A DNA stretch of 64,000 nucleotides from the NCBI GenBank assembly GCA_016208305.1, contig JACQYI010000006.1, positions 248,001-312,000 of the forward strand. Direction: 5' to 3'. The DNA is from Oscillatoriophycideae cyanobacterium NC_groundwater_1537_Pr4_S-0.65um_50_18 (GTDB lineage: Bacteria > Cyanobacteriota > Cyanobacteriia > Elainellales > Elainellaceae). Under the pieces are notes generated by a model, which was not told the origin of the DNA, ran no database searches, and worked only from the letters and a program-made list of their open reading frames with translations. Below, one piece after another: positions 6,749 to 26,311 of this stretch; positions within the stretch are counted from its first letter, which is position 1, and the number at the start of each line of letters is the position of its first letter. The translations under genes were made by a program, and so were the position numbers.

Positions 6749-6804
6749 GTGCCTAGATGGGTGCCTCGATTAACCCCTAAGATCGCACACAAAATAAAAC
6801 CGAA

Positions 6805-6864: not shown

Positions 6865-6983
6865 TCGACCTGAGAGGCTGATTTTTTTAGGCGTGATAGA
6901 CTCGAGAAATTAGGCCAACCTGTTGCCTAACCTGCCTTAGCAATCTCGGATTGCATGCCCTTAACTCCTACCCCACCTTTCCT

Positions 6984-7841: not shown

Positions 7842-7926
7842 CGAACATGAGTTTGCAAATTGAATAAACCTATAGCCACTTTACTTGGGACGTTGGTGGC
7901 GCGCTGTCCTAGCCTCGCACAGCTAA

Positions 7927-8048: not shown

Positions 8049-9131
8049 TTACCAAGGCACCATAACTTCCTCTGGCTTCGTTTTGCTGCGGCGATCGCGC
8101 ACTTTTTGACGGGCGCGCCACTGGCGAATGGCGATCGCGGTTCGCATGATGGGCGACACGTAGCCTTCGGGCATTTCTTCTTCGGCAATGACGCCTAACG
8201 GCACATTGTTCATGCAGTCTGCCAGAGAGTCGAGATATGGCTCTAAATCGAGCATCCGCAACACTTCTTCAGCATTTTGGTAGCGATCGCGAGCCGAAAC
8301 CTTCAGCATTTTCTCCAGCAGTTTACCGAAGTGATCGCTGACCTGAACCGTGTCTTGCCAGTTAACTTCGCCCGTCGCTGGGTTGTAGTCAAACTCCATT
8401 GGAGGCTTGCCCGTTAGTAAGTACAGACAGGTCACGCCCAAGGCAAACATATCGCTGGCAAAGGTCGATCGCAGGGCAAGTTGCTCAGGTGGGGCAAAGC
8501 CGAGCGTCCCGACAAAGTGAGTCGTGGTGGCGCGCTGGGTACTTTCTCCCATGCGAATGAAATGCTCTTTAACGGCTCCAAAGTCGATCAGCACAAGGCG
8601 ACCGTCATCTTGGCAGCGAATAATATTGGGAGGCTTAATGTCTCGGTGGATCACCTGGTTCTCATGCACATAGCTCAGAACAGGCAGGATCTCCCAGAGA
8701 AATTGCTTGACCTCACGCTCTGACAAAGAGCCTTTAATCTTAACCTCACGAGCTAAGGTGCGCCCCTTAATGTATTCCTGTACAAGATAGAATTCACCAT
8801 TCACCTGAAAATAATCCAGCAGGCGGGGAATTTGAGCATGGCTGCCAAGCTGGCTGAGGATTTTAGCCTCTCGCTCAAACCTTTGACAGGCACGCTGTAG
8901 CGCCATAGGGTTGCTCACCTTGGGACACAAGAGCTTGATGACGCAAAGGGGATTGCTGGGGAGCGCCATATCTCTGGCTAGAAACGTGACCCCGAAGCCC
9001 CCTCGCCCCAGAGTGCGAAAGATTTTGTAGCGATCGCGGAACAGCCGATCTGACCCGCAGATCTGGCTCAGATAAGTCTGATGCTGGGGTGAGGAGCGCA
9101 AATTGTCCAGTTTTGGAACTGATGAATCCAT
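8049..9131 (-). CDS. Ser/Thr protein kinase, cyanobacterial Pkn2-like
   Basis: Eukaryotic-type serine/threonine kinase, 360 aa from ATG 9131. The reading frame stays open to 9239, but the extra 36 codons include a 20-bp duplication and look non-coding. Kinase motifs in order: glycine loop GRGGFGVTF, the catalytic Lys in VIKLL, HRDIKPPN catalytic loop, IDFGAVKE (DFG Mg loop), a Thr-rich activation segment (TTTHFVGT) and APPEQ. The domain covers about residues 35-305. The C-terminal ~55 residues are basic and contain no recognisable sensor repeat, so the kinase is probably cytosolic. It ends convergently with the methyltransferase gene. Target unknown. Confidence 0.9.
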   Translation of the reverse strand: MDSSVPKLDNLRSSPQHQTYLSQICGSDRLFRDRYKIFRTLGRGGFGVTFLARDMALPSNPLCVIKLLCPKVSNPMALQRACQRFEREAKILSQLGSHAQIPRLLDYFQVNGEFYLVQEYIKGRTLAREVKIKGSLSEREVKQFLWEILPVLSYVHENQVIHRDIKPPNIIRCQDDGRLVLIDFGAVKEHFIRMGESTQRATTTHFVGTLGFAPPEQLALRSTFASDMFALGVTCLYLLTGKPPMEFDYNPATGEVNWQDTVQVSDHFGKLLEKMLKVSARDRYQNAEEVLRMLDLEPYLDSLADCMNNVPLGVIAEEEMPEGYVSPIMRTAIAIRQWRARQKVRDRRSKTKPEEVMVPW

Positions 9132-9192
9132 GGCAAATCCAGGGTCAGAGATCTCGTCCTGAAAGGCAATATAACACTCGCTGCCCGAATGG

Positions 9193-9232
9193 CTGCGTAA
9201 AGACACAATAAACTGCGTAAAGACAGAATAAA
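9193..9232. repeat. 20-bp tandem duplication
   Basis: CTGCGTAAAGACACAATAAA is repeated once directly, 19 of 20 bases identical. It lies upstream of the chosen kinase start, in what is probably its leader. Confidence 0.7.
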
Positions 9233-9390
9233 GAATCAATCAAGCTAATTGCTGTGATCTAGGACACGCTTAGAGTTGAATCCGCTCAGTAGAATTACAG
9301 GATGAACAGTTAAGGGAAGTAAAGTTTGTGTCTAGCTGCTCAGCTGTGGTGAAGGTTTTGGCTCCTGATAAAACTCAAACTCAAAAATTT

Positions 9391-9423
9391 TTAAGAGCGT
9401 GCGGCGGAGCCGCACGCTCTTAA
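9391..9423 (-). terminator. Terminator downstream of maf
   Basis: Perfect 15-bp GC-rich stem (9391-9405 with 9409-9423) with a 3-base loop. On the minus strand it is followed by AAATTTTT, consistent with an intrinsic terminator for the maf gene. Confidence 0.7.
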
Positions 9424-9463
9424 AAAAGCTCTCTAAGTGATTGCTGAAAAGCTCTACTAGCCA

Positions 9464-10072
9464 TTAGCGAGCTGTATTTGCTCCCCAAAAATCTACGGCA
9501 TCGTATCCCAAATCGGCTAGCATTTGCCGGAGCAAAGGCAGGCTGAGTCCAATGACGTTGCTGTGACAGCCATTAATTTTTTCGACGAATAGCCCACCTC
9601 GCCCCTCTAAGGCAAAACAGCCTGCGCAGGCCATCGGCTCACCTGTTGCGATGTAGGCCGCAATTTGGCGATCGCTCACCTCGGCAAAATGTACCTGGGT
9701 CATCTGAGCGCGCACCAGCACCCGATTCTGCACCTGATCAATCAGCGCATGTCCTGTATAAAGCTCTCCAACTTGCCCCCGCATTTTCTGCCAACGGGCG
9801 ATCGCCTCAGCCTTATTTGCAGGCTTGCCATGAATTTCGCCATTTAACGCCAGCACCGAATCGCAGCCCAGAATTAGAGCACCTGTAACCTGTGGTGCAA
9901 CGGCTCCTGCCTTTCCCTGAGCCAAGGTTCTAACCAATACATCCGCGTCTGTAACTTGAATCTGCGATTCGTCAAAATCGCTAGGACGCACAATGGGCAC
10001 AATACCAGCCGTCTGCAACAGCCGCTGTCGCGCTGGAGAAGCGGAGGCCAAGATGAAGGGAGGGACAGCCAT
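9464..10072 (-). CDS. maf: Maf-family nucleoside triphosphate pyrophosphatase
   Basis: Maf/YhdE-type house-cleaning pyrophosphatase, 202 aa, the usual family length. The start has the signature [13 protein letters not shown], followed by the conserved Asp region ([16 protein letters not shown]) and the [12 protein letters not shown] helix typical of the family. Maf proteins hydrolyse non-canonical or dTTP/UTP-type nucleotides to monophosphates and affect septation when overproduced. It lies 26 bases after the CyanoP gene, on the same strand. With mazG upstream, two nucleotide-sanitising enzymes flank the CyanoP gene. Confidence 0.92.
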
Positions 10073-10098
10073 TTGAAAGTCACTCCGTTAAAGAAATC

Positions 10099-10641
10099 CT
10101 AATAAACCGAGAAGGAATTGACAGACTGACGGAATTTATCCTGTGCTTTTTCCCAGCGCTTTTCGGTAGTTGAAAGGTTGTAGGTGAAAAGCTGTCCCCG
10201 CCGCACGACCACGCTAGCCAAGTTATGACGGGCTTGGGTTGGCAACTGCACAGCATATTCCAGCAGGTAGTAGGTTTGATCACCAATCTGACGCGCTTTG
10301 GCATCTACCAGTTCAGCGGTGCGATTGGAGCCTGGAGGAGCGATCGCATTTTTTGACAGCCTGTAGCCCACTTCGCTGGGGGTGCCCAACTCCTCTAAGG
10401 TCTTGCCGTCTGGCACATCGCTAATAATAACGCTGGCGTTTTCGGTTTCTTCAATGATGTCATGCAGTACCAAATCTGCATCGCTTACCTTAACGGGCAC
10501 CCAGCCGTTGGGATAGAGAAACTCATAGCCTTTGTAGCTTTCAACGTAGCTCTTAAGTCCGGCTCCTGCTACTGTTGCAGTGCAGCTTTGCAGACTCAAA
10601 CTCAATACAACCAGCAGCACAACTGCAATTCGCTTCAGCAT
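10099..10641 (-). CDS. CyanoP, PsbP-like photosystem II lipoprotein
   Basis: Cyanobacterial PsbP homologue, 180 aa. A lipoprotein signal peptide ends in LSLQSC, so the mature protein starts at the Cys and is lipid-anchored on the lumenal side of the thylakoid. The body shows the PsbP pattern: YKGYEFLYPNGWVPV, then NASVIISDV, and YYLLEYAVQLP near the middle to C-terminal end. CyanoP takes part in early photosystem II assembly and is not a stable oxygen-evolving subunit as plant PsbP is. It sits between mazG and maf, all minus strand with short gaps. Confidence 0.92.
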   Translation of the reverse strand: MLKRIAVVLLVVLSLSLQSCTATVAGAGLKSYVESYKGYEFLYPNGWVPVKVSDADLVLHDIIEETENASVIISDVPDGKTLEELGTPSEVGYRLSKNAIAPPGSNRTAELVDAKARQIGDQTYYLLEYAVQLPTQARHNLASVVVRRGQLFTYNLSTTEKRWEKAQDKFRQSVNSFSVY

Positions 10642-10718
10642 CTTCAGACATCCTAAAACCGCTCAGACTAAAATTTTACTGGTTTGGGGGACACCCCGAT
10701 CGCCCCTAGCGCTCATTC

Positions 10719-11546
10719 TTACCTTTTACCCAGCTTCGCCTTGGCCTGCTGCCAAAACAATTCCAGTTCTTCTAGGCTGTAATCAGAGAGCGATCGCCCT
10801 TCACTCATGGCTTCTACCTGGCTAAACCGCTGAATGAATCGCTGATTGGTGCCTTGGAGGGCAGCATCTGGGTCAAGCCCATACCAACGTGCCAAATTGA
10901 CGATCGTAAACAGCAAGTCTCCTAGCTCTTCTTGCTGTCGCGCTTGGGTATCCTCGTCGATCGCCTGCTTAAACTCACCTAGCTCTTCTTGGAACTTTTC
11001 CCATACGCCTTCCACGGTTTCCCACTCAAACCCAACGGCTGCCGCTTTTTGCGAAATCTTGAGCGCTGCTGTGATCGGAGGCAGCGATCGCCCATAGCGG
11101 CTCAGGCGGGGACTAAGGAACTGCACTTGAGATTTGGCTGCTTCTTCGGCTGCTTTAATTTGCTCCCAGTTTTGGTGAACTTCGGTGACGCTACTAACCG
11201 TAACCTCGCCAAAGACATGGGGGTGCCGTCGGATTAACTTTTCGGCAATATTGTCCGCCACGGTTGCCAAATCAAATTGTGCAGCTTCGCTGGCAATCTG
11301 CGCCTGTAGCACCACTTGCAGCAACAAATCGCCCAATTCATCGGCGATCGCTTCGGGTTCGCCCTGCCGAATGGCGTCCACGACCTCGTAAGCTTCTTCT
11401 AAAACATAGGGTATGAGCGTTTCGGGCGTCTGTGCCAAATCCCAGGGACAGCCGCCATCGGGCGATCGCAGCGTAGCCACCACTTCAATCAAACGCTGGA
11501 GCGCCTCAAGGGTGGACTGACGAGTTGGCGGGTGCGGTGGGGTCAT
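10719..11546 (-). CDS. mazG: Nucleoside triphosphate pyrophosphohydrolase MazG
   Basis: MazG, 275 aa, with two MazG all-alpha NTP-PPase domains. The first has GGCPWDLAQT, EEAYEVVDAI and DELGDLLLQVV, carrying the EExxE...ExxD metal ligands. The second repeats the pattern in FQEELGEFKQAI and EELGDLLFTIV. The enzyme hydrolyses NTPs and dNTPs to monophosphate and pyrophosphate, removing aberrant nucleotides. It is the likely first gene of a minus-strand run with CyanoP and maf. Confidence 0.93.
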   Translation of the reverse strand: MTPPHPPTRQSTLEALQRLIEVVATLRSPDGGCPWDLAQTPETLIPYVLEEAYEVVDAIRQGEPEAIADELGDLLLQVVLQAQIASEAAQFDLATVADNIAEKLIRRHPHVFGEVTVSSVTEVHQNWEQIKAAEEAAKSQVQFLSPRLSRYGRSLPPITAALKISQKAAAVGFEWETVEGVWEKFQEELGEFKQAIDEDTQARQQEELGDLLFTIVNLARWYGLDPDAALQGTNQRFIQRFSQVEAMSEGRSLSDYSLEELELFWQQAKAKLGKR

Positions 11547-11596
11547 TGTGGGTAAGCGGTTAAGGGGGAACGTTTCATTTATATTAAGGCACCCAT

Positions 11597-12124
11597 TTAC
11601 CTCCCTCTTTTCTTTGCCCGCTTCTTTTTTTTTCGCTTATGGGAAGACACAAGCCAATCAGCCGTGTAATGGCTAAACGCTCCCAGCTCCAAACCAATCA
11701 CAAAGGCGATCGCCTCAAGGCGGTTTTGCCAGAGCGATCGCTGAATCACCCCACCAATCTCATCCCAAGTCCAGCCCAACTGCCAGAGTTCGTTGGCTAG
11801 CGCTAGGCTCGCAAACCCGGCAAACCCTAACCATGCCAGCAGATAAATTACCCGCACCGTGGTTCCGGTAATGGGAGCATGTGACCAAGGCGATCGATGC
11901 TTCATGCTGCCGCGATAGGGCAACCAAATCCAGCGCAGCCAGCCCCAGCGCTTGTATTGAATGGAATGAATATCGAGGTCAGGCCCTAGCATTAGCCCAC
12001 CGAACAGGAACCCAGCACAAATCATTAGGGTTGCCATGCCTTGCCGGGTTGCTGCCAAAGTCAAACCTGCAACTACAGGCAAAGCCCATAGGGTAATGCG
12101 ATCGTGGGTTTTACCCGAGGGCAT
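11597..12124 (-). CDS. DUF2227-family putative metal-binding membrane protein
   Basis: Protein of 175 aa matching the cyanobacterial family annotated as metal-binding (DUF2227). Candidate ligands are the N-terminal His/Asp (GKTHDR), GPDLDIHS and the KHRSPWSHAP segment. Three to four hydrophobic segments (about 14-50, 85-108 and 135-155) indicate a membrane protein; the last ~12 residues are a run of Lys/Arg. It is 50 bases downstream of mazG's start on the same strand and could head that run. No demonstrated function. Confidence 0.8.
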   Translation of the reverse strand: MPSGKTHDRITLWALPVVAGLTLAATRQGMATLMICAGFLFGGLMLGPDLDIHSIQYKRWGWLRWIWLPYRGSMKHRSPWSHAPITGTTVRVIYLLAWLGFAGFASLALANELWQLGWTWDEIGGVIQRSLWQNRLEAIAFVIGLELGAFSHYTADWLVSSHKRKKKKRAKKRGR

Positions 12125-12160
12125 GGAGAGGGTTCCGTAAAATTTATTTCTGAACAGATC

Positions 12161-12189
12161 TTAGCAACTTGTGATCTGTCTGCTATGAT
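12161..12189 (+). promoter_or_regulatory. Likely tRNA-Val promoter
   Basis: TTAGCA (12161-12166), a 17-base spacer and TATGAT (12184-12189), placing transcription start about 35 bases before the tRNA. The -10 box is good, the -35 box matches consensus at four of six positions. Confidence 0.45.
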
Positions 12190-12230
12190 GTCTATCGGTG
12201 CACTTGATGCACAAAGCTGACCTTAAGCAT

Positions 12231-12303
<73 letters not shown>

Positions 12304-12539
12304 TTTGTCTCTTATTCCTATGGGTTCTGTGCCTCCGGCTGTCTGCAAAAGCAAGACTTGCCGAGCGATCGCAGTACCTCAAAAGCAGTGGTTGAAGAAG
12401 GCTACCTAACCCTTCTCCACGCTTCTTTAATTTTTAAAATAAAGCGAGTCGAATACTGCGATGAAGAAAGCATCTAGTTTGGTCTTAACCCCATTCTGGC
12501 TAAAGCTAAGCAGTTGCATGACTGGAAACGCCGATGTAA

Positions 12540-12686
12540 CCAGAGCCAGATATCGCCATAGTGAAGTGATCGCTAGACTCTTACACGCAACATTACCTCT
12601 ATCCTGAAGAGGTATTCTGGCTGATTGAATACGCCCTTGAAAGCAAGAGCAGTCGAACCACTAGGATTTGCAGGGGTGGAAGTTAA
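12540..12686 (+). pseudogene. Degraded Uma2-family (DUF820) endonuclease-like gene
   Basis: Reading one frame from 12540 gives PEPDIAIVK, a stop at 12567, then DSYTQHYLYPEEVFWLIEY, ending at the stop at 12684-12686. The order (E/P)PDIAxV, D.Y...H..PEEVFWLIE is the core of Uma2-family PD-(D/E)XK proteins, which are abundant in cyanobacteria. Both ends are lost and no start or downstream KxxxY region is recognisable, so this is a fossil of a once complete gene. The identification rests on remembered family patterns. Confidence 0.5.
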
Positions 12687-13017
12687 CAAGCTCCTCCGTT
12701 AGCCAAAGCCTTGACCTTCAAGCAAGTTAGAAAAACGACACTTACTTTGCGAAGTGTTCAAGCGATCGCCTGATTTTTGCAAGCAAGTAGCTATCTGCAT
12801 GTAAAGCCTCTAAAACGCTTGACGAATAAGCTTTTCAGACTTTTGCTTGATGCAAAATCGGTTGGGCGATCGCGATATTTAATGTGCGGACGAACAGGCT
12901 GAATTGACAGATCGAAAGGATAATTTACGGTAATTCACGCAGAAGGTTCGTATCAATTCATCAAAGTAAATGAGTTGAGATTATAGTATACTAGTACTAA
13001 TCTACGCTAGACAAGCT
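12687..13017. other. Non-coding stretch before DUF559 gene
   Basis: About 330 bases with no gene. The last part is AT rich (TTATAGTATACTAGTACTAATC at 12979-13000) and probably contains the promoter of the next gene. The first 60 bases may be further decayed Uma2 sequence, which I cannot prove. Confidence 0.35.
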
Positions 13018-13770
13018 ATGACTCGACGGGGTGAGGTGCTAGTAGCCCTCCTGAATAACCGGGCAGATTGGACGATCGCCTATGAGCAGCATTGGTATCG
13101 CATTCCCGTTACCAGCGTCGAGAAATTTCTCAAATCTCGCTGGCCGCCGGAATGGCTAGCCTTTTACCAAACTCGGGTCTTCGGTCATGAAAAGTACGCC
13201 GTCAACTACTGCGCTCGGGTTTTACGAATAGAGTTATGCGATCGCACCCAGCTTTTTCCTCAAGAGCGGCCTAATGCTAAAAGCTACAAGCGCTATTACA
13301 AGCTAACGCTGTCTCCGCTCGAAAAACTGCCTCAGGCGATCGTGAGTCTGCGCCAGCGTCGGATCACCTTTACTGCTACAACGTTGAATAAGCTGATGAC
13401 GGCTACAGAAATCAATGATCTATACGACGATAGCCCGCTGGAAGATCAGGTCTGGCGTGCTTTGAAACAGCTTCACATTCATGCAGAGCGCCAAGAGCGG
13501 ATCATCGTCAAAGAGAAGATCTACTTTCTAGATTTTGCGATCTACTGCGTTCAGGGAAATATTAATGTTGAAACTGACGGCGATCGCTGGCACTCGCAGC
13601 CGCAGCAGATTCCGCAGGACAACGTGCGTCACAATGATTTGGGAACTCAGGGCTGGCGGACGCTGCGGTTCAACACGGCTCAAGTTCGGGAGCAAATGGG
13701 CGAATACTGCATTCCCACAGTGATTGAAAACATTGAGCGGCTCGGCGGATTGAGCCAGTCGTCCAATTGA
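13018..13770 (+). CDS. DUF559 (Vsr-like nuclease fold) protein
   Basis: Protein of 250 aa. The C-terminal ~110 residues match DUF559, a PD-(D/E)XK fold related to very-short-patch-repair endonucleases: SPLEDQVWRAL (conserved Glu), YFLDFAIYC (catalytic Asp), then INVETDGDRWH (Glu and Asp), and GWRTLRFN at the end. The N-terminal ~130 residues are a separate domain with no family I recognise; it begins with a DWTIAYEQHWYRIP beta-rich segment. It could act on nucleic acid, but no partner (methylase, toxin, transposase) is adjacent. It lies beside a decayed Uma2 gene, also of the PD-(D/E)XK superfamily, which marks this spot as accessory DNA. Confidence 0.75.
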   Translation: MTRRGEVLVALLNNRADWTIAYEQHWYRIPVTSVEKFLKSRWPPEWLAFYQTRVFGHEKYAVNYCARVLRIELCDRTQLFPQERPNAKSYKRYYKLTLSPLEKLPQAIVSLRQRRITFTATTLNKLMTATEINDLYDDSPLEDQVWRALKQLHIHAERQERIIVKEKIYFLDFAIYCVQGNINVETDGDRWHSQPQQIPQDNVRHNDLGTQGWRTLRFNTAQVREQMGEYCIPTVIENIERLGGLSQSSN

Positions 13771-14022
13771 GTCGCTTTTGCCCATTCGGCAAAATCATTC
13801 TCAGGGTTACTGTTCCTCAAGACAGATTCGCGTTAAGTTTTGAAAAGTTGCCTGCCGCTCAAGGAAGTAGGTGATGTTCTAGATTGCTGTGAGCTTTTGA
13901 GAGGGACGCAGCGAATCTTTCAAATCAAGACGGGCGAAAAAATGGCGCTGCTGATTTTATCTATGAAATTAGCACCGCCAAAAATCAGTTCGATGGGCAG
14001 TTCAGCAACGGGGAGCAAGCAG

Positions 14023-16344
14023 ATGGATAGCGGCACAGAGTCGGAATTGGCAGCGGAAAAATTGGCAACCGAAAAATTGGCAACCGAAAAAACAGACGAT
14101 CGCGCCAAAGCGCTAATGGCGCAAGACGAAAACTCACCTGATAAAGGCGGAGGCTTGCCGATTATTCAATATTGGGCAGAGCATACCCTATCGCCCGAAG
14201 GGCCAAAGCTGTGGAAAACCTTGCTGCATAAAAGTGCTTGCCTCTCTTGCGCCTGGGGCACAGGCGGACAAAAGGGAGGATTTACCAATGAGGAAGGCGA
14301 GAAACTTCAGCGCTGTATGAAGAGCGTTGAGGCGATCACCGCAGAGATGATGCCGCCCGTTGCTGACGACTTTTTTGCCCGATATAGCCTAGATGAACTG
14401 CAACAGCTAACCTCTTTGGAGGCCGATCGCCTGGGTCGGCTGAGCTATCCGGTGATTTTGAGAGCAGGCAGCACGCACTATGAGCGAATTGGTTGGGAAG
14501 AAATCTACCAAATGACCGCAGCGGCGTTTCGTCAGCAGCCCGAACGGGTGGCTTCCTATAGCTCAGGGCGATCGTCTAATGAGGCCGCCTATTTGTTGCA
14601 ATTAATGATGCGGACGCTCGGCTCCAATAATTTGGCTGACTGCTCAGATTTATGCCATTCCCCTTCGACTGTCGGGCTAAAGGAGGTCTTTGGTACCAGC
14701 ACCTCAATGGTGAGCCTAGAGAACCTCAAGCAGGCAGATTGCGTAGTGCTGATTGGTGCTAATTCGCCTTCTAATCATCCTCGGTTCATGAACGAGTTGA
14801 TTAAGCTACGCGATCGCGGCGGCAAAGTCATCATCGTTAATCCGGTGGTAGAAGTCGGGTTGGTTAAGTTTGGCTCTCCGGCGTTCCCCATTAAGTCGCT
14901 GATTCCTGGTTCAGATATTGCATCGCTCTATCTTCAATTGATTCCGGGTAGCGATGTAGCGCTGTTTGTGGGTATCCAGAAAGCGTTGCTGGAAAAGGGT
15001 TTAGCGAAACAGGATTTTTTGCATGCCCATGCCGAAAACTGGGAAGCTGTGGTGGAGTTTGCTCAAAATACGGCCTGGGAAACCCTAACGGCAACATGCG
15101 GCGTTTCGCAGCAGGAGATCGAGGCCGCCGCAGAGATCATTGGCGCAGCCAAGGGTGCGGTGTTTGCTTGGGCTATGGGGGCAACGCAGCACGATAACTC
15201 TGTTGATAATATTTACAGCATTGCCAATACGGCTGTTTTATCGGGTCATGTTGGCAAGCCGGGGGCAGGCACGATGCCGATTCGTGGCCACTCTAACGTG
15301 CAGGGCTTTGGCTCGATGGGTGTGACCACAAAGCTAAAGCAGGAAATTAAGCAGGCGCTGGAAAAGCTATTGGGGCGATCGCTCAATTTGCCCGAAGGCT
15401 ATGACACCCGTGCCCTGATTGAAGCCGCTGATCTGCACAAGGTCGATGCGCTGCTGTGTCTGGGAGGCAATCTCTATGCCGCCAACCCCGACTCAACCCA
15501 GGCAAAACGCGCTTTGGGTCAAATCGAAACGATCGTCTATCTGGCGACCAAGCCCAACTTGGGTCATTTTCACGGTTTGGCAAAGCAGAATACTCTGATC
15601 ATTCCAGTCTTCAACCGCTTCGAGAATCCGCATAAGACCACAACAGAATCGGGCAACAATTTTGTGCGGCTCAATAACGAAGGTGAAACCCATCTAAAGT
15701 CAGCCGATCTGGTTTCAGAAGTGGGTTTTTTGACAGAGCTAGCGCATCGGCTGCATGGTGCCGACCCGGTAGACTGGCGTAAATTGCAAGACACGCAATA
15801 TGTGCGGCACTTAATTGCTCAGACGATTCCTGGCTACGAGAAAATTGGGGCGATCGATACAACGCTAGAAGAATTCACCATCTCAGGGCGCATTTTCAAT
15901 CAGCCTCATTTTGCTACGCCTTCTGGCAAAGCGAAGCTGTTTGTCACGCCGCTTCCGCTGCTCACATTGCCCTCTATCAGCGAGTTTGGGCTACCCGACT
16001 CGACTCAGGGGATTGTCTTAGCGCTCATGACCGGACGCAGCTATTCGCAGCACAACACCGTAGTCTACAAAATTGGCGACCAGTATCGGGGCATGCCCCA
16101 CCGCAACTGCATTTTAATGAATGCCGGAGATGCCAGACGCGTTGGATTTGAGGAGCACGATCGCGTCACGGTGCAAGCCAATGCGGGCAAGTTGGAGAAT
16201 GTCGAAATTATTTATGGCATGGTGCGAGAAGGTTCGGCGCTGATGTTTTACCCTGAGGTGAATGTGATCTTTAAGGCAAAAGTTGAGCCGCGATCGGGTA
16301 CTCCGGCATTCAAGCGTGTTCCTGCGGTGGTGTATGCGCTATGA
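14023..16344 (+). CDS. FdhF/YdeP-type molybdopterin oxidoreductase
   Basis: Molybdopterin-dependent oxidoreductase of the FdhF/YdeP group, 773 aa from ATG 14023, which has GGGAG seven bases ahead. The frame is open back to 13840, with other ATGs at 13942 and 13993. An N-terminal Fe-S motif is reduced (CLSCAWG, then RCMKSVEA). SSGRSSNEAAYLLQ and DLCHSPSTVGLKE mark the cofactor region; the Cys in DLCHS is the probable metal ligand. The molydopterin-binding C-terminal domain starts near GLVLALMTGRSYSQHNT-like sequence and ends at PAFKRVPAVV. The native reaction of this group is not well established; formate dehydrogenase is only a family label. No FdhD, electron-transfer or cofactor genes lie nearby. 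Near the N-terminus a 15-bp in-frame repeat encodes KLATEKLATEK. Confidence 0.85.
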   Translation: MDSGTESELAAEKLATEKLATEKTDDRAKALMAQDENSPDKGGGLPIIQYWAEHTLSPEGPKLWKTLLHKSACLSCAWGTGGQKGGFTNEEGEKLQRCMKSVEAITAEMMPPVADDFFARYSLDELQQLTSLEADRLGRLSYPVILRAGSTHYERIGWEEIYQMTAAAFRQQPERVASYSSGRSSNEAAYLLQLMMRTLGSNNLADCSDLCHSPSTVGLKEVFGTSTSMVSLENLKQADCVVLIGANSPSNHPRFMNELIKLRDRGGKVIIVNPVVEVGLVKFGSPAFPIKSLIPGSDIASLYLQLIPGSDVALFVGIQKALLEKGLAKQDFLHAHAENWEAVVEFAQNTAWETLTATCGVSQQEIEAAAEIIGAAKGAVFAWAMGATQHDNSVDNIYSIANTAVLSGHVGKPGAGTMPIRGHSNVQGFGSMGVTTKLKQEIKQALEKLLGRSLNLPEGYDTRALIEAADLHKVDALLCLGGNLYAANPDSTQAKRALGQIETIVYLATKPNLGHFHGLAKQNTLIIPVFNRFENPHKTTTESGNNFVRLNNEGETHLKSADLVSEVGFLTELAHRLHGADPVDWRKLQDTQYVRHLIAQTIPGYEKIGAIDTTLEEFTISGRIFNQPHFATPSGKAKLFVTPLPLLTLPSISEFGLPDSTQGIVLALMTGRSYSQHNTVVYKIGDQYRGMPHRNCILMNAGDARRVGFEEHDRVTVQANAGKLENVEIIYGMVREGSALMFYPEVNVIFKAKVEPRSGTPAFKRVPAVVYAL

Positions 16345-17710: not shown

Positions 17711-19777
17711 CTAGCCCAAAGCCGCTCGTTTCCGGCTCGATCGCCGACCTTTCGGGGGAGGCTCAACGACCTGACCATTCTGACCACTATTGGGGGTACT
17801 GTTCGGTCTGTTAGTTGGGCTACTGCTCTGGCTACTGTTTCCGACCACGGCTGGGGCGATTGGTAGGGTGAAATGAAACTGGCTGCCCTGATCGCGCCCT
17901 GCCGATTCTGCCCAAATCTGCCCGCCCAAGCCTTTAATAATTTGGCGGCAGATTGCCAGCCCTAAACCTGTCCCTCCAGCGGTGCGGCGTAAGGCTCCTT
18001 CTTCTTGGTAAAAGCGATCGAACACAGTTTCTAGCCGATTTGGCTCGATACCGCGCCCGGTGTCGGTTATGGTGATTTCTAGCATTTTGCCGCCGTTGGT
18101 CTTGGCTTCAATCACAACCTCGCCTTCAGGGTTGGTGAACTTGCAAGCATTGTCTAGCAGCTTCGAGAGAACTTCGACCACTCGCTCACCATCGGCTTGC
18201 ACCTGTGGCAGCTCTAGCGGCACCTGTGCCCGGATCTGCGGCAGTTCTTCTCGGTTCATGCTGCGGATGCTGCTGACGGCCAGATCAACACATTCATCCA
18301 GAGCGATTGGTTCTAGATGCCACTGCACGCGACCGCTTTCTAGCCGCGAAAGTGTGATGAAATCCTGGATTAGCTTTCGCATGCGATCGGCATCGGTCAT
18401 GGCCGTATTCAGCATCACCTGTCGCAGCTCTGGGGGCATATCGGGTTCGCTGGCAAGGCTTTCTAGACAGACTTGAATGGTCGAAAGCGGCGTGCGTAAC
18501 TCATGTCCAGTAATCGCAATTAAATTGCTGCGGGTGCGCTCTAGCGCTTCAAGCTGCTGGTTTAAATCCTCTAAGTTGGCGTAAGATTCTGATTGAATCA
18601 GCGCGACGCCGAGCTGCGTTGCCACCGCCTCCACTAACCCCATTTCGTCGTGGCTCCAGCCATAGGGTTCTTGCCGACAGTGGTGTAGCTCTACCATGCC
18701 CAGCAGCCGTCCTTGGTAGATGACAGGCACCATTAGCCAAGAGCGAATCTGCCAGCGATCGACCAGGAGATCGAGCGAGGACAGATCGACCGGTTGGGCA
18801 ATTTGGGTATCGACAACGGCGATCGCCTCTAGCTGCTGCACCACAGCCTGAAAGAGAGGGTTTTCCTGTAACGGCCAGCTTTGCCCGACGACCGACTTCA
18901 CCGCCGCACTCGACAGCGATTCATAAATAATGGGCACGGTAGCGTCGGTTGCCTTGCAGCGATAGACCAAACAGCGGCAGACCTGCATGGCTCGCCCCAG
19001 CTCCTCTACAGCTACCTTAAAGATTTCGTTGGGGTCGAGCGATCGCCGCATCGCGGAGGTAATCAAATTCACCAGCCGCTCTCGCCGCTCTTGAGCCGAC
19101 ATGGCACGGTAAGCCTTGAGTAGCTTATATTGTCCTGCTTGTAGATATGTGACCAGCCGTTGGGCAAACGGATCAGGATCAACCTCACTCAAGCCGGGTA
19201 CCGCTTCTACCAAATAGTCTGTCTTGGCTTGCTCAATCTTTGCCCGTAATTCTGGCCGATACAGCGCAATCCGATCAAGCAAAATTCGGGCGGCTGTGCA
19301 GCTGGCCTGACGATCGAATGTCCAAACGCCCTCAAACCGTCGGGTTTGATCCATCGCGGGCAGTCCGGCGGTTTCCTGTTCGCTGGGGGCAAGGGTTTGG
19401 CGCTCTTGACACACTAAGCAGGCTGTATAGTTTTGCCCAAGCACGACCAAATGCCACTCGCGGCTGAGCTGATCGTCTGAATCAAAGGCGATCGTTTCAT
19501 ATTCTTTAGACTCGCTCATGAAGCTGGTTTCTGGAGCAGCCAGCACATAAATATGAGGAGTCAGAGCGGCAATTCGCTCATAGCGATGAGACTCTTGCCG
19601 ATAAAACCGCTCTCGCTGAAAGCTGGCAATCACCAGAGGCATACGAACTCCCGCCGCCAAGACCTGATCCTCCATTGCGTGAGACAGGGCGGTTAGCGAA
19701 GCCTTGAAGTAAAGTTGAGGGCGCAGCTGGGGCGAGCTTTTTAATAGCTCTTCCAGGACAGAAGCTTGGATACTCAT
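17711..19777 (-). CDS. DICT-GAF sensor histidine kinase
   Basis: Histidine kinase of 688 aa with no membrane segment. The order is DICT sensory domain (about 15-160; LTALSHAME, ASFQRERFYRQ, YVLAAPE), a connector, GAF domain (about 235-400), HisKA with the phospho-acceptor His near 425 (ITGHELRTPLS), and HATPase with N (LLDNACKF), G1 (DTGRGIEP) and G2 (GTGLGLAI) boxes. The GAF lacks the Cys-His chromophore motif, so it is not a cyanobacteriochrome. The last ~50 residues are a Ser/Asn/Pro-rich tail. It is transcribed divergently from the 20.1-26.3 kb sensor operon across a 302-base region with a tandem repeat, suggesting shared control. No response regulator follows it. Confidence 0.9.
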   Translation of the reverse strand: MSIQASVLEELLKSSPQLRPQLYFKASLTALSHAMEDQVLAAGVRMPLVIASFQRERFYRQESHRYERIAALTPHIYVLAAPETSFMSESKEYETIAFDSDDQLSREWHLVVLGQNYTACLVCQERQTLAPSEQETAGLPAMDQTRRFEGVWTFDRQASCTAARILLDRIALYRPELRAKIEQAKTDYLVEAVPGLSEVDPDPFAQRLVTYLQAGQYKLLKAYRAMSAQERRERLVNLITSAMRRSLDPNEIFKVAVEELGRAMQVCRCLVYRCKATDATVPIIYESLSSAAVKSVVGQSWPLQENPLFQAVVQQLEAIAVVDTQIAQPVDLSSLDLLVDRWQIRSWLMVPVIYQGRLLGMVELHHCRQEPYGWSHDEMGLVEAVATQLGVALIQSESYANLEDLNQQLEALERTRSNLIAITGHELRTPLSTIQVCLESLASEPDMPPELRQVMLNTAMTDADRMRKLIQDFITLSRLESGRVQWHLEPIALDECVDLAVSSIRSMNREELPQIRAQVPLELPQVQADGERVVEVLSKLLDNACKFTNPEGEVVIEAKTNGGKMLEITITDTGRGIEPNRLETVFDRFYQEEGALRRTAGGTGLGLAICRQIIKGLGGQIWAESAGRDQGSQFHFTLPIAPAVVGNSSQSSSPTNRPNSTPNSGQNGQVVEPPPKGRRSSRKRAALG

Positions 19778-20014: not shown

Positions 20015-20079
20015 AATTCTGGTTTGCCCCAAAATGGGAACCCTTCTAGAAGTTGGCCGCAAGGACAAGGGAGAAAAAT

Positions 20080-23000
20080 ATGTTGGAATTTCACAGCACT
20101 CTGGCATTTATTCCCCACGGGCATTGCTACCTCTGGAAGCCTGGATTGGTCAGGCTACATGCGCTATCTGACGGCTTGATTGCCCTAGCCTACTTCTCCA
20201 TTCCTCTGACGCTCCTCTATTTTGTGCGGCAACGCCGAGATTTGCCCTATCCCTGGATCTTTCAACTCTTTGGGCTATTCATTGTCGCTTGTGGTCTTAC
20301 CCATGTCATGGAAATCTGGACGCTCTGGCACCCGACTTATTGGGTGGCAGGCGGGCTAAAAGCGTTCACCGCTCTCGTCTCTTTGACGACGGCATCGGCG
20401 TTGATTCCGGTTATTCCCCAAGCCTTAACTCTGCCCAGCCACAGTGAGTTAGAGGCGGCCAAAGCCGAATTAGAACAGCAAGTGTACGATCGCACCCAGT
20501 CGCTCCGGCAGAGTGAGGAGCGCTTACAACTTGCCTTGGCTGGCTCTGGAGACGGATTGTGGGATTGGAATATCGCTACGGGAGAAGCTTATCTTAGCCC
20601 CCGCTGGCAGGAGATGTTGGGCTATGAAGCGGGTGAATTGGCGAACCACATTAGCACCTGGCAAACTTTGATTCACCCTGAAGATCGACCCTGGCTCATG
20701 GAACGGTTAGAGAAACACCTGCAAAACCCTCAAATTCCCTATGGGTTTGACTATCGGCTTCAGACCAAATCTGGAGAATGGAAGTGGGTTGGCACCTATG
20801 GCAAGGTTGTTGCCTACGATGATCAAGGGCGACCTGTGCGTATGGCGGGTACCCACAAAGATATTAGCGATCGCAAGCGCCATGAAGCCGAGCGCAAGGC
20901 TGCAGAAGAGGCGATGCAAGAGAGCAACACGCGGTTTAGAAACCTGGCAGCCAATGTGCCCGGAGCGATTTTTCGCTACATGCTGCGACCGGATGGCTCT
21001 GACAAGATCTTGTATATGAGTCCGGGTTGCTATGGTCTCTGGGAGGTGGAAGCAAGCGTGGCGGAAGCGGATGCTACCGTACTCTGGCAGATGGCTCACC
21101 CTGATGATTTTCCGGCTCTGTACGACTCTGTCTTGGAGTCTGCCCGTACAGTACAGCCTTGGTCATGGTCATGGCGAATTACGACACCCTCAAAGCGACA
21201 AAAGTGGCTGGAAGCCTCAGGCAGACCAGAACGTCAAGCGAATGGTGATGTTATTTGGGATACGGTGATCTTGGATATCACAGATCGCAAAACTGCCGAA
21301 ATGGCTCTGGCAGAGTCGCAACAGCAATACCAAAACTTGGTAGAAAATTCTCCCGACATTATTGAACGGTTTGACCTGCAACTGCGCCACCTTTATGTCA
21401 GTCCTAGCTTGACCCAGATTACCGGGATGACCGCAGAAGTTTTTTTGGGCAAAACCTGTCGCGAGCTGGGTTTGGATGAAGTCATGGTGACTCAGTGGGA
21501 GGAGGCAGCAGCAGCTCTATTGAAAACTGGAAAAAGACAGGTGATTGAGTTTTCAAGTCCCACATCGGAAGGGATGCGATCTTTTGAAATGGCGATCGCC
21601 CCTGAATGGTCTGATCCGCAAACCCTTAAGTCGATCCTCTGCATCTCTAGAGATATTACTGCGCGTCAACAAGCCGAGGCCAATCGCCTCCAGGCCGAGA
21701 AACTGCGCCTCAATCTGACGCTGCTAGAAACCTTGCTCGACAATATCTTGGCTGGGTATTGGGATTGGGATATCCCTAACCATACTAACTATTGGAGTCC
21801 GGGGCTAAAGCGCATGTTTGGCTATGAAGACCATGAACTGCCTAACATACCCGAAACCTGGAAAAGCCTCATCTTTGCAGAAGATTTGCCGGAAGCGCTT
21901 GAGTGCATCGATCGCCATGTGCAGAGTCATGGAGAAGTCCCCTTCTACTGCGAAGTCCGGTATCGCCACAAAAATGGCTCGACCATTTGGGTTATCTGCG
22001 TGGGGCAAGTGATTGAATGGAGTGCTTCGGGTCAGCCGCTGCGGATGGCTGGCTGCCACATTGATATTACTAAACTCAAGCAAGCAGAAGCCCAACTTCA
22101 AGAGAGTGATTCTCATTTAAAGCTGGCTCAACGCATTGGCAAAATTGGTAGCTGGGAATTTAATCTGCGGACTGAGCAAATCACTTGGTCCGATCAGGTT
22201 TTCCGCCTGTTTGGGTACGATCCAGCAGCAGGGACTCCCAGCTTTAGCGACCTCCAGCAGTATATTCACCCCGACGATCGCCGTTTTCATCAACAAACGC
22301 TGCAAACGGCGATCGCTAAGGGGCAACCTTACGATATCGAATGCCGCATTTACAATACCGACGGTGAGCTTCTCTATATTCAAGACAAAGGAGAGCCATT
22401 TTGGGATGCGACAGGGCAGCTGACGCATCTGACGGGCACGGTGTTAGACATCACAGAGCGCAAGCAGGCCGAAATTGCCTTACGGCAGAGCGAAGCCACC
22501 AATCGGGCTTTGATCAGCGCTATTCCAGATCTGCTGATCTGGATCAATCACGATGGCACCTATCTCCATATCTTGGGCGGGGGCAAAAGCATTAAGTTAC
22601 ACAAGCCCTTATCAGAACAAATGGATGTCAGTGTTTACACTGTGCTGCCCTATGAGATGGCAAAAGAGCGAATGCACTATATCCAGCAGGCGCTACAAAC
22701 CAACGAACTGCAAGTGTATGAGTATCAATTTAATATCCAAGGTGATATTCGCGATGAAGAAGCGCGCATTGTCAAATGCGGCGATCATCAGGTGTTGTGC
22801 ATGGTGCGAGACATCACCGATCGCAAGCGAACTGAAGCCAGTCTCTTGCACACAACAGCCCAATTAGAAGCCTCTAATCGAGAGTTAGAAGCTTTTGCTT
22901 ACTCGGTATCCCATGATTTGCGATCGCCACTACGAGCAATTGATGGCTTCAGCAAAGCCTTGGTGGAAGACTACAGCGATCGGTTAGATGCAGAAGGTCA

Positions 23001-23565
23001 AGACTACTTCGATCGCATTCGCCACAATGTTCAGCGCATGGGAATGCTAATTGACGATTTGTTGAACCTTTCTCGCGTCTCTCGATCGGAAATGCGATAT
23101 GCAGAGGTCAACCTGAGTCTGTTGGTACAAGAGCAGATCAATGAATTGCGCGCTGCGGAACCAGACCGACAAGTTGAAGTGGTCATTGCTCCAGAAGCGA
23201 TCGTTTCAGCAGATCTCACCCTCATGCGCGTGGTGGTCAGCAACTTGTTAGGAAATGCTTGGAAGTTTACCAGTCACCGTTCTGTTGCCCGGATCGAATT
23301 TGGCATAATCAGGAGAGATGAACAATTCGTCTATTTTGTTTGCGATAATGGAGCAGGGTTTGATATGACCTATGCTTCTATGCTTTTTGGCGTCTTTCAA
23401 CGCTTGCACAATACCAATGAGTTTCCGGGCACGGGTATTGGTCTTGCTACAGTTCAGCGGGTCATTCATCGACATGGCGGCCAAATTTGGGCAGAAGCCG
23501 CTGTAGAACAAGGAGCCACGCTTTACTTCACCCTACCCAGTCCACTCACGATGGCAAAAATCTAA
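20080..23565 (+). CDS. Ethylene-receptor-type multi-PAS histidine kinase
   Basis: Hybrid-less histidine kinase of 1161 aa. The ATG at 20080 has AAGGGAG just upstream. Residues 1-115 contain three hydrophobic helices matching the ethylene-binding domain of plant ETR1: [13 protein letters not shown] and then FIVACGLTH. All key positions are kept with a constant offset of six: Asp31, Tyr38, Pro42, Phe67, Ile68, Cys71, His75 (ETR1 D25, Y32, P36, F61, I62, C65, H69). Cys71 and His75 are the expected Cu(I) ligands. Six PAS domains follow (about 135-260, 285-405, 415-545, 555-690, 700-820, 825-925), then HisKA with His near 945 ([10 protein letters not shown]) and an HATPase of the phytochrome-like type ([24 protein letters not shown]). 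Stop is four bases before the response regulator start, so they form an operon. Predicted signal: ethylene or copper, by inference. Confidence 0.93.
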
Positions 23566-23569
23566 TTTC

Positions 23570-23992
23570 ATGTCTCCATTGCGTGTCATCTTGTTGGTTG
23601 AGGATAATCCTGATGATGAACGCCTCACCATTCGCGCTCTTCGACGTGGTCAGATTGCCAATGAAATTCGGGTGGCTCGAAATGGCGAAGAAGCCTTAAA
23701 TCTTGTTTTCAGTTTAGAGCCATTACCCAGCGTGGTGCTTTTAGATTTGAAATTGCCCAAAGTTGATGGTCTAGAAGTTTTACGGCAAATTCGGGCTAAT
23801 GAACATACTCGTTTATTGCCAGTAGTCGTACTCACGTCTTCCAGTGAGGATCGAGATATTATTGAAAGCTATAGCCTGGGAGCGAATAGCTATGTGCGAA
23901 AACCCGTTGAGATTGATCCATTTACCGAGGCGGTGCGTCAATTGGGACTCTATTGGGTGCTGATTAATGAGCCGTTACCCGAAGGGCTGTGA
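23570..23992 (+). CDS. Rcp1-type single-domain response regulator
   Basis: Receiver-only response regulator of 140 aa. The acidic pair is in LVEDNPDDE, the phospho-acceptor Asp in [12 protein letters not shown] (residue 63), the conserved Thr/Ser in [11 protein letters not shown] and Lys in YVRKPVE. The C-terminal extension [10 protein letters not shown] is typical of Rcp1-type partners of cyanobacterial phytochromes and phytochrome-like kinases. No output domain is present, so it must pass the signal on by binding or phosphotransfer. It is separated by four bases from the upstream kinase and by three from the downstream photoreceptor kinase, which strongly suggests translational coupling within one operon. 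Confidence 0.95.
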
Positions 23993-23995
23993 GCC

Positions 23996-26311
23996 ATGAG
24001 TGACTCCCTCACTGTTTTGATGGTAGAAGACTCAGAGGATGATGCATTGCTCGTACTGCGAGAGCTGCGTCGTGGGAACTTCGACCTCATTTGGGAGCGG
24101 GTGCAAACGGCGATCGCACTTCGTGCCGCCCTTGCCAATCGGGCTTGGGATGTGATTATTTCAGACTATAGACTGCCTGGGTTTGATGCACCTGCGGCAC
24201 TAGAGGTACTTCAGGAAAGCCAAATTGATCTGCCCTTTATTGTAGTGTCAGGCACGATTGGCGAAACGCTAGCGGTTGCCATGATGAAAGCGGGTGCCCA
24301 TGATTATCTGATGAAGGATAATCTAACGCGATTACCAGAGGCGGTGCGGCGGGAAGTTCGCGAGGCGCAAATTCGCTCAGAGCGCAGACAGGCCGCTATT
24401 GAACTCCGGCAAACTGCGGAGCGAGAGCATTTAAGCCGCATGGTCACTGAGCGAATCCGGCGATCGCTCAATTTGGATGAAATTTTGATGACGACCGTTA
24501 CCGAAGTCCGCCAGGTCTTGCAGACCGATCGGGTTATCCTGTTTCGGCTCCATTCCGATGAGCAAGGCTACGTCGTACAAGAGTCGGTTGATCCGCGTTG
24601 GCAGGCTCTGCTGGGTCAGGATATTCATGACCCTTGCTTTTACACAAATTATACGCAGCAGTATTTTCAGGGGCGAGTCCGGGCGATCGCAGATATTGAT
24701 GATGGCAGCATCCAGCCTTGCCATGCTGATTTTCTCAGGCAGTTTCAGGTTCGAGCGAATTTGATTGTGCCGATTATCCAAACCACAGAGCTATGGGGCT
24801 TGCTCATTGCCCAGCAATGTGAGCAACCGCGACAGTGGTCTCAGGATGAGATCTATCTCTTGAAGCAGCTAGCCGATCAAGTGGCGATCGCGATTTACCA
24901 AGCCGATCTTTATCGTCAGACTCAGCTTGAGCTAGCCGAACGTCAGCGGGCAGAAGCCGCTCTCCAACGTCTGAATCAGGAACTCGAACAGCGTGTGCAA
25001 GATCGCACCCAAGCCTTAAAGCAACAGGCAGAACAGGAGCGATTGCTGCGGCTAATCATTCAAAATATTCACCGATCGCTCGATCTGGATGAGATTTTGA
25101 CAACAGTGCTGAGCGAAACTCGGCAGACGCTTCAGGCCGATCGGGTTGCCATCTATCAGTTTGCTCCTGATTGGAGCGGCTGTTTTGTGGCCGAGTCTGT
25201 GGCAGAAGGATGGGCACCCCTCGTTGGAGAAGATATTCAAACCCTTTGGGAAGATACCTATCTGCAAGAAAATCAGGGCGGGCGCTATCAAAACAATGAA
25301 ACCTTTGCCGTCAACGATATTTACACAATTGGGCATAGCCAGTGCCATATCGATGTGCTGGAGCAGTTTCAGGTGAGAGCTTATGCGATCGCGCCTATTT
25401 TCTTAGGCGATCAGCTGTGGGGATTGCTTGCGGCCTATCAAAACACGGGCTCGCGGGAGTGGCAAGCTTGGGAAATGAGTTTGCTCAGACAGATTGGCAT
25501 CCGTACCGCGATCGCCCTTCGCCAATCTCAGCTCTATCAAGCTTCTCAGATGCAGGTCAAAGCTCTAGAGCAGGTGAGTCAACTCAAGGATGATTTTTTG
25601 AGTACGGTTTCTCATGAGCTGCGATCGCCGCTGGCTAACATCAAAATGGCGATCCAAATGGTGAAGCTCAGCCTCGATCAACAGCAGATTAAAGACGATC
25701 GACTCGATCGCTATCTCCAGATCCTCGAAGAAGGCTGTACTCAGGAGCTGACCCTAATCAATGACTTACTGGACTTACAGCGCTTAGAGGCAGGCGTAGA
25801 GTCTCTCGATCTAGAGAGTATTGATCTCAATTATTGGCTGCCCTCGATCGTCGAACTTTTTGAAGATCGTGCTCAAAAACAGCACCAGCAGCTGACGATC
25901 AGCATACCTTCAGACTTGCCCACCATTACGACCGATTTAAATGAGTTTAAGCGTGTCCTGATGGAGCTGCTCCACAATGCCTGCAAGTATACGCCCCCCC
26001 ATGAGCAGATCACGGTAACGGCTCAGGTAATAGAAACCACCCTACAAATCCAGGTGAGCAATTCAGGGGTAGAGTTGCCTGCTGGAGAATTGCCTCGCTT
26101 GTTTGAGAAGTTCTATCGGGTTGCTAGCGTCGATCGCTGGAAACATGGGGGAACTGGGTTAGGACTCGCACTGGTTAAACATTTGGTTGAGCACCTGCAT
26201 GGCTCGATTCAGGTGGAGAGCGCTAACTCCGTCACCTGCTTTACCCTTCAGCTTCCCCTTAAAATAAAGCAGGCCCAACCCTGCGGGGATGAGAAACGGC
26301 CTGTCGGGTAA
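23996..26311 (+). CDS. Receiver + dual cyanobacteriochrome GAF histidine kinase
   Basis: Predicted photoreceptor kinase, 771 aa, soluble. Residues 1-125 are a receiver domain (Asp57 in ISDYRLPG, Lys107). GAF1 (about 148-305) holds both cysteines of DXCF cyanobacteriochromes: DPCF with Cys214 and the canonical Cys242-His243 (PCHADFLRQFQVRANL). Their spacing of 28 equals that in TePixJ. GAF2 (about 345-512) has only the canonical pair, Cys450-His451, plus WEDTYLQENQGGRY, the signature of the red/green class. HisKA follows with His540 (VSHELRSPLANI), then HATPase boxes (ELLHNACKY, GTGLGLAL). The expected chromophore is phycocyanobilin, which GAF1 may convert to phycoviolobilin. Predicted colours (blue/green and red/green) are inference. 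It is third in the operon with the ethylene-type kinase. Confidence 0.95.
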   Translation: MSDSLTVLMVEDSEDDALLVLRELRRGNFDLIWERVQTAIALRAALANRAWDVIISDYRLPGFDAPAALEVLQESQIDLPFIVVSGTIGETLAVAMMKAGAHDYLMKDNLTRLPEAVRREVREAQIRSERRQAAIELRQTAEREHLSRMVTERIRRSLNLDEILMTTVTEVRQVLQTDRVILFRLHSDEQGYVVQESVDPRWQALLGQDIHDPCFYTNYTQQYFQGRVRAIADIDDGSIQPCHADFLRQFQVRANLIVPIIQTTELWGLLIAQQCEQPRQWSQDEIYLLKQLADQVAIAIYQADLYRQTQLELAERQRAEAALQRLNQELEQRVQDRTQALKQQAEQERLLRLIIQNIHRSLDLDEILTTVLSETRQTLQADRVAIYQFAPDWSGCFVAESVAEGWAPLVGEDIQTLWEDTYLQENQGGRYQNNETFAVNDIYTIGHSQCHIDVLEQFQVRAYAIAPIFLGDQLWGLLAAYQNTGSREWQAWEMSLLRQIGIRTAIALRQSQLYQASQMQVKALEQVSQLKDDFLSTVSHELRSPLANIKMAIQMVKLSLDQQQIKDDRLDRYLQILEEGCTQELTLINDLLDLQRLEAGVESLDLESIDLNYWLPSIVELFEDRAQKQHQQLTISIPSDLPTITTDLNEFKRVLMELLHNACKYTPPHEQITVTAQVIETTLQIQVSNSGVELPAGELPRLFEKFYRVASVDRWKHGGTGLGLALVKHLVEHLHGSIQVESANSVTCFTLQLPLKIKQAQPCGDEKRPVG

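Follow-up and report, generated by a model that had tools for sequence, protein, structure and literature searches.

An operon with a receiver-led light kinase

The window, a stretch of 64,000 nucleotides (nt) from Oscillatoriophycideae cyanobacterium NC_groundwater_1537_Pr4_S-0.65um_50_18, carries an operon of three genes on its forward strand (Table 1). Gene 1 encodes HK1, a histidine kinase (HK) that begins with an ethylene-receptor-type domain (ETR1_N), gene 2 a small response regulator (RR) and gene 3 a receiver-led histidine kinase with two cyanobacteriochrome GAF domains, here called the light kinase. The gaps are very short, 4 nt between HK1 and the regulator and 3 nt between the regulator and gene 3. 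The explanation that we consider best, at a probability of roughly 0.7, is that the gene 3 protein would be a light kinase with three serial inputs, its receiver being the output port of HK1.

Table 1. Features of the operon, with positions in the window (aa, amino acids; ORF, open reading frame; REC, receiver)
Feature	Position	Strand	Evidence
Gene 1 (HK1), ETR1_N-PAS repeats-HisKA-HATPase kinase; translation more probably begins from an ATG at 20080	20053..23565	+	Pfam, PDB, gaps
ETR1_N, ethylene-receptor-type N-terminal domain of HK1, seven-residue motif intact	20146..20433	+	Pfam, motif
Gene 2, single-domain response regulator, 140 aa, Rcp1-type kin	23570..23992	+	Pfam, PDB, gaps
Gene 3, REC-GAF1(DXCF)-GAF2(XRG)-HisKA-HATPase histidine kinase, 771 aa	23996..26311	+	ORF, Pfam, 9 further orthologs aligned
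Receiver (Response_reg), residues 7-117; acceptor D57 at 24164-24166	24014..24346	+	Pfam, alignment columns
GAF1, residues 159-300, DXCF-type cyanobacteriochrome	24470..24895	+	Pfam, tree, REC-GAF1 model matching PPHK
DPCF motif, second Cys is C214	24629..24640	+	residue check, PDB register, alignment columns
GAF1 canonical bilin Cys C242 and H243	24719..24724	+	residue check, alignment columns
GAF2, about residues 363-508, red/green (XRG) type	25082..25519	+	PDB matches 6bhn, 3w2z; tree
GAF2 WXDXXL motif (WEDTYL), W418-L423	25247..25264	+	alignment columns
GAF2 canonical bilin Cys C450 and H451	25343..25348	+	residue check, alignment columns
HisKA 531-600 (H540) and HATPase_c 647-756 (N-type G1 box NSG)	25586..26263	+	Pfam, columns, G1 tally

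The search for orthologs of gene 3 covered 388 genomes, a sample of the class taken from a larger group, with two candidates scored per genome. They were found at an identity of at least 74% in 10 of the 388 genomes, the source genome included. All ten were aligned, none being left out; they are 74–86% identical to the window protein, with a mean column identity of 72%, and the match in genome G237 begins at residue 128, a PAS domain being inserted there behind the receiver. One of the ten loci (L045) starts at a contig edge and was left out of the gene-order count. The order HK1, regulator, gene 3 is present in all nine loci with upstream DNA, window included. In these nine operons the regulator and gene 3 are separated by −4 to 6 nt. 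The distance between HK1 and the regulator is −4 to 4 nt in seven operons, and 350 and 594 nt in the other two. The catalytic part of HK1 is nearest to bacteriophytochrome kinases in the PDB, and the best PDB matches of the regulator are 5brj, 5ic5 and the Rcp1-type regulators 1k66 and 1i3c. A divergent DICT-CHASE6_C-GAF-HisKA-HATPase kinase adjoins the operon (17711-19777, minus strand).

In the light kinase, the receiver residues E11, D12, D57, S85, T87 and K107 are invariant in the ten orthologs, so the acceptor site is intact, and so are H540 and N661 of the kinase core. Pfam recognises two GAF stretches in this protein, the best of them at residues 159-300, and no membrane domain was recognised. 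The NSG sequence of the G1 box, in place of DxGxG, raised the question of a dead kinase. We dropped this possibility because Asn is present at this position in all 59 related kinase domains (at least 45% identity, in the loci examined at that stage) and is thus a trait of the kinase group.

By sequence, the best PDB match of the REC-GAF1 part is PPHK (4.5e-60, 38–39% identity), a dual-sensor histidine kinase of Leptolyngbya sp. JSC-1 in which a receiver likewise precedes a cyanobacteriochrome GAF. An AlphaFold model of this part (9 sequences, mean predicted local distance difference test score 83, predicted template modelling score (pTM) 0.54) gives the same answer: the three PPHK entries 6oap, 6oaq and 6ob8 are its top matches by Foldseek and by VIA-align (for the latter Z 20.9–21.2 and a root-mean-square deviation of 6.4 over 293–298 residues), and among the 50 matches listed only the PPHK entries cover both receiver and GAF. 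The gene 3 protein has the PPHK-like order of receiver, cyanobacteriochrome GAF and histidine kinase, with its acceptor Asp intact. However, the PPHK GAF has Tyr at the position of C214, whereas gene 3 has the DXCF cysteine and, ahead of the kinase, a second GAF of the red/green type. According to excerpts of two reports, PPHK integrates light and phosphorylation as a logic OR (PMC8584932), and the absorption of its solved Pg state lies at 562 nm (PMC11480761).

Two cyanobacteriochromes in one protein

A preliminary description of this DNA had placed in GAF1 a DPCF motif at Cys214 and a canonical Cys242-His243 pair at a spacing of 28 residues, and in GAF2 the WEDTY and QGGRY signatures together with Cys450-His451. 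A scripted residue check bore out each of these motifs. The same description took Cys450-His451 to be all that GAF2 has; the pair is present, but the domain holds one more cysteine, C396, found in the window protein only (one of the ten orthologs). The combination of D-x-C-[FL] and a C[HY] 28 residues after its cysteine arose in just 5 of 200,000 shuffles of the GAF1 segment. With the 37 residues surrounding the motif as query, DPCF falls in exact register in the four best PDB sequences (6p58, 3vv4, 2m7u and 4fof), all of them PixJ, with E-values of 0.004–0.005 that are weak owing to the shortness of the query. TePixJ shares with GAF1 the DPCF motif and the 28-residue spacing to the canonical Cys, and GAF1 lies among DXCF GAFs in the tree described below, but TePixJ is a taxis receptor whereas GAF1 sits within a receiver-led kinase.

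The bilin-site residues C214, C242, C450 and H451 are invariant in all ten orthologs, as are W418, D420 and L423 of GAF2. D212 is kept in nine (Glu in L046), and residue 215 is Phe in six and Leu in four. One could suppose that one or both GAFs are photo-inactive and act as linkers, as losses do occur among relatives: the GAF2-like domain of the related fusion L051 has lost its Cys, and the DXCF-motif GAF of L047 is without the canonical one. Complete retention of the four residues, against a mean column identity of 72%, makes this very unlikely for the light kinase. Bilin binding, and control of the kinase by light or phosphorylation, are features that we predict from the gene 3 sequence. We infer bilin attachment and the colours of both GAFs; for GAF1, blue/green is what DXCF domains typically show and is transferred here by analogy.

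Class membership was examined in a quick tree, built by maximum likelihood from 90 GAF rows with seven PDB references, in which several branches are long. Support is given as the Shimodaira-Hasegawa-like approximate likelihood ratio test (SH-aLRT). GAF1 forms with its orthologs and L021 an 11-row set (SH-aLRT 99), which joins five further DXCF GAFs in a group of 16 rows (SH-aLRT 86), inside the assemblage containing all seven cyanobacteriochrome references. GAF2 belongs to a 28-row clade (SH-aLRT 96) with AnPixJg2, NpR6012g4 and Slr1393g3. The phylogeny proposed in the preliminary description as a check thus places both GAFs inside, and not outside, the cyanobacteriochrome assemblage. NpR6012g4 is also the best PDB match of GAF2 (4.7e-63). 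The three XRG proteins share with GAF2 the WXDXXL motif and the canonical Cys-His pair, the best PDB matches of GAF2 are of this type, and we noted no sequence difference that sets GAF2 apart from them. Other XRG-lineage GAFs, in L030, L033, L036 and L037, are without the Trp and carry a Cys in the DXCF register (DHCL), and constitute an XRG group with a second cysteine.

Regarding bilin supply, the genome has two matches to haem oxygenase and three to Fe_bilin_red, each above its cut-off. Two of the ferredoxin-dependent bilin reductase genes adjoin each other at G000:C41:203348-204911 (minus strand) and the third lies on C46. Given these adjoining and third reductase genes, bilins besides phycocyanobilin may be available in the source organism.

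The preliminary description had further emphasised a DXCF and a red/green module on one receiver-led kinase. This architecture is confirmed, but it is less special than it appeared, as the PPHK plan is known and the genome encodes a second kinase of this kind. This is a REC-DXCF(C219/C247)-PAS-XRG(W572, C604)-HK protein of 1039 aa at locus L159 (G000:C38, 2800-5919, minus strand), with a single-domain regulator 9 nt downstream, and uniqueness of a DXCF and an XRG domain behind a receiver was rejected on account of it. DXCF and XRG GAFs presumably occur together in other known proteins as well, e.g. NpR5113. A GAF-GAF-HK arrangement akin to the C-terminal half of gene 3 also ends the long multi-domain kinases L047, L048 and L049, in which no receiver was detected (for L047 by Pfam); such endings fit a domain swap.

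A receiver with changing effectors

The regulator is much more widespread than the light kinase. It is present in 72 of the 388 genomes at E <= 1e-50, versus 10 of 388 for the light-kinase orthologs (at least 74% identity), and the idea that the two are tied by co-occurrence alone was dropped for this reason. The nine operons were set aside, and for the remaining 63 genomes with the regulator one locus per genome was surveyed by one script using blastp, the classes resting on comparison with the window proteins and two other proteins. Pfam was run on nine third-gene and eight first-gene proteins from these 63 loci.

A receiver-led gene lies 3' of the regulator in 59 of the 63 loci, its receiver being 56–73% identical to that of the window, and in 55 the gene 5' of the regulator encodes a kinase whose catalytic domain is of the HK1 type (57–77%). 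What follows the receiver varies: among the 59 loci blastp classified the effector as a kinase in 35 and as a GGDEF-EAL protein in 19, with 5 unclassified. Pfam agrees for all nine effectors scanned, which are eight kinases and the REC-PAS-GGDEF-EAL protein of L196. Six of the eight kinases have PAS and a terminal receiver, that of L197 has a terminal receiver without PAS, and that of L200 is a short REC-PAS-HK. The same pattern emerges from twelve triads compared pairwise with the window. The HK1 catalytic domain is 63–78% and the receiver 60–73% identical, and the kinase behind the receiver only 29–38% (11 of the 12 triads, L196 having none). The regulator of L198 is 69% identical to that of the window. 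The front ends of HK1 change too: in the eight scanned by Pfam, ETR1_N was recognised in one (L200) and CBS in two, with PAS and GAF in others.

Because the receiver remains constant while the effector changes from a kinase to an enzyme of cyclic di-GMP (c-di-GMP), the receiver is, from comparison of sequences, most likely the output receiver of HK1, and the two-colour kinase the effector placed behind it. The operon hence indicates the probable source of phosphate for the receiver, a context absent from the preliminary description. In such a scheme, HK1 would phosphorylate both the small regulator and the light kinase's receiver. Three inputs would then act in series on one HisKA/HATPase core, namely phosphorylation of D57, light through GAF1 (typically blue/green) and red/green light through GAF2. 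Phosphorylation and light would act jointly on the light kinase, as described for PPHK, and the light kinase would in turn probably phosphorylate the same small regulator. Integration could follow the logic OR of PPHK with a second colour added. It is in this sense that we infer the phosphotransfer partners, the signalling direction and the integration logic.

It might be argued instead that gene 3 encodes a stand-alone dual-colour kinase, the receiver serving as internal feedback or as a phosphate sink for its own HisKA, and HK1 sharing only the regulator. Self-regulation is possible in fusions of a receiver to a kinase, HK1 and the light kinase need not be in contact for the operon to be of use, and the receiver and the regulator of the window share just 33% identity. 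However, the same receiver is kept beside the regulator in 59 of 63 loci, 19 of them with a GGDEF-EAL-class effector, and the L196 effector is by Pfam without HisKA, so that its receiver cannot be served by a kinase of its own. We therefore regard the stand-alone kinase as improbable.

Several observations weigh against the proposal that the receiver is the output port of HK1. Two loci (L195 and L237) have no such receiver gene downstream and L231 has no intact regulator; the remaining shortfall in the receiver count, L239, is a contig edge. Six loci (L186, L187, L188, L191, L204 and L232) have room upstream yet no HK1-type kinase; in the same count, a contig edge accounts for L226, and L231 went unscored. 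Within the 55 positive loci, the HK1-type kinase of L195 and L236 is about 1.8–1.9 kb away, and that of L195 is split into two ORFs. At 33% identity between receiver and regulator, recognition of both by one kinase is not self-evident. The relative placement of receiver and GAF1 in the model is uncertain (pTM 0.54, deviation of 6.4 from PPHK). For the light inputs, residue 243 is His in seven orthologs and Tyr in three, and the joining of the 11-row GAF1 set to the five DXCF GAFs has modest support (86) in a tree with several long branches. As to the input of HK1, ETR1_N is recognised in eight of the nine HK1 proteins, that of L044 having no alignable domain, and the ethylene motif is intact in only four of the nine operons.

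The arrangement can be compared with known relays. In phytochrome-Rcp1, as here, a sensor kinase precedes a small single-domain regulator of the Rcp1 kind. The RcaE-RcaF-RcaC relay also proceeds from a sensor kinase to a small regulator. The window differs from both in its third member, a receiver-led photoreceptor kinase and not a DNA-binding regulator. Versions led by phytochromes were encountered among eight neighbourhoods of GAF1-related kinases, three of which (L158-L160) come from the source genome. In L161 and L163 a Cph1-type phytochrome (PAS_2-GAF-PHY-HK) is followed by a regulator and this by a REC-DXCF kinase, the gaps being −4 and 2 nt. The phytochrome of L162 lies directly upstream with no regulator in between, phytochrome and regulator are divergent in L164, and the first gene of L165 encodes a PAS kinase. 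No such first gene was seen in the neighbourhoods L158-L160.

Among the components, DXCF and XRG cyanobacteriochromes are already known, and so are cyanobacteriochrome kinases led by a receiver and receptors for both ethylene and light. New, as far as the literature searched shows, would be the operon, which as read from its genes joins a two-colour light kinase to a kinase resembling an ethylene receptor, and the exchangeable triad. Compared with PPHK, gene 3 adds a second colour, and its operon offers a concrete candidate for the phosphate donor. The triad also allows a simple test of whether cyanobacteria connect different sensors and effectors, photoreceptors and c-di-GMP enzymes among them, to one relay.

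Three further observations concern proteins of these loci. REC-PAS-GGDEF-EAL-type proteins replace the light kinase behind the regulator in L196 (G134, 9107-11257, plus strand) and in 18 further loci, and a link of the relay to c-di-GMP through these effectors is possible. In L207 (G108), the gene after the regulator at 7435-7857 (plus strand) encodes a receiver-led hybrid kinase, 1329 aa long, in which a GAF resembles the cyanobacteriochromes of the window; it is possibly a second light kinase in the cassette. Upstream of the orthologous operon in L039 (G034) lies a gene (11305-14604, minus strand) whose product has four GAFs, three of them of the XRG type.

The ethylene-receptor-type domain of HK1

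Pfam recognises ETR1_N in the HK1 of the window at 3.7e-42. Four of the seven ethylene-binding residues of ETR1 belong to the general background on this receptor. The other three, D25, C65 and H69, are named for ethylene binding in the part of PMC11819568 consulted. The operons with all seven residues in ETR1 spacing are those of the window, L038, L040 and L041. In the others C65 is replaced by Ser (L039) or Tyr (L046), P36 by Val (L042), and D25 by Asn together with I62 by Val (L043). Six of the nine operons have both copper ligands, Cys and His. The residue at +22 after the ethylene His, the position of the ETR1 lysine, is Thr, and the alignment has a Lys at +19. This is the spacing given for AzoEtr1 in the same excerpt (PMC11819568). 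Among the 55 HK1-type neighbours of the wider survey, blastp found an ethylene-type domain in four, of which L200 has an intact motif and L233, L234 and L236 an altered one.

Since the motif is broken in five of the nine operons, ethylene was rejected as the conserved signal of the operon. Judged from the residues, ethylene sensing here is plausible, yet it is not what holds the operon together. HK1 could still be a working ethylene receptor in the source genome, ethylene setting the phosphorylation of the light kinase's receiver. In favour of this are the strong ETR1_N match, the seven residues in ETR1 spacing in the window, in L038, L040, L041 and in the distant L200, and the precedent of SynEtr1/UirS (slr1212), which according to excerpts of PMC6682694 and PMC5812497 unites an ethylene domain and a cyanobacteriochrome kinase in one protein. 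SynEtr1/UirS thus combines, like the operon, an ethylene-type N-terminus with cyanobacteriochrome kinase signalling (PMC6682694, in part), but in a single polypeptide, whereas the operon of the window has two kinases, one with the ethylene-type domain and one with the cyanobacteriochromes. On the other hand, the broken motifs, the copper pair kept in only six of nine operons, the unrecognised ETR1_N of L044 and the rarity of the domain among the HK1-type neighbours (4 of 55, three of them with an altered motif) all speak against an ethylene receptor, and HK1 may use its PAS repeats to detect a different signal. We consider a working ethylene receptor possible, if rather doubtful.

A second possibility is that ETR1_N has been retained merely to anchor HK1 in the membrane or to bind a different ligand, with the PAS repeats conveying the signal. 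Five of the nine operons show drift of pocket residues, yet ETR1_N is recognised in eight, as would be expected in that case. However, the window, L038, L040, L041 and L200 retain all of the tested residues, which an anchor alone would not need. We regard such an anchor, or a domain for another ligand, as a serious candidate at somewhat less than even odds.

More broadly, the operon could be one instance of a widespread cyanobacterial cassette in which the HK1 catalytic domain, the small regulator and the receiver are fixed while the HK1 sensor and the effector (a kinase, a GGDEF-EAL enzyme or, in the window, the two-colour kinase) are exchanged. In the window's clade an ethylene-receptor kinase would drive the receiver of the light kinase, so that a gas, through phosphorylation, would determine the gain of colour vision. 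Taken as a whole, we put forward this proposal only tentatively and think it unlikely to hold in every part. An effect of ethylene on cyanobacterial phototaxis is reported in the portion of PMC6682694 consulted; if HK1 does respond to ethylene, this effect would become testable at one phosphotransfer.

Two related observations may be added. Locus L051 (G173, 5250-7775, minus strand) encodes an 841-aa ETR1_N-PAS-PAS-GAF-HK fusion, the kinase of which is 75% identical to that of the window. It was rejected as a clean Rosetta stone, its GAF being without the bilin Cys and its ethylene motif being altered. The source genome (G000) contains seven ETR1_N matches, on C4, C7, C41, C47 and C60, six of them strong.

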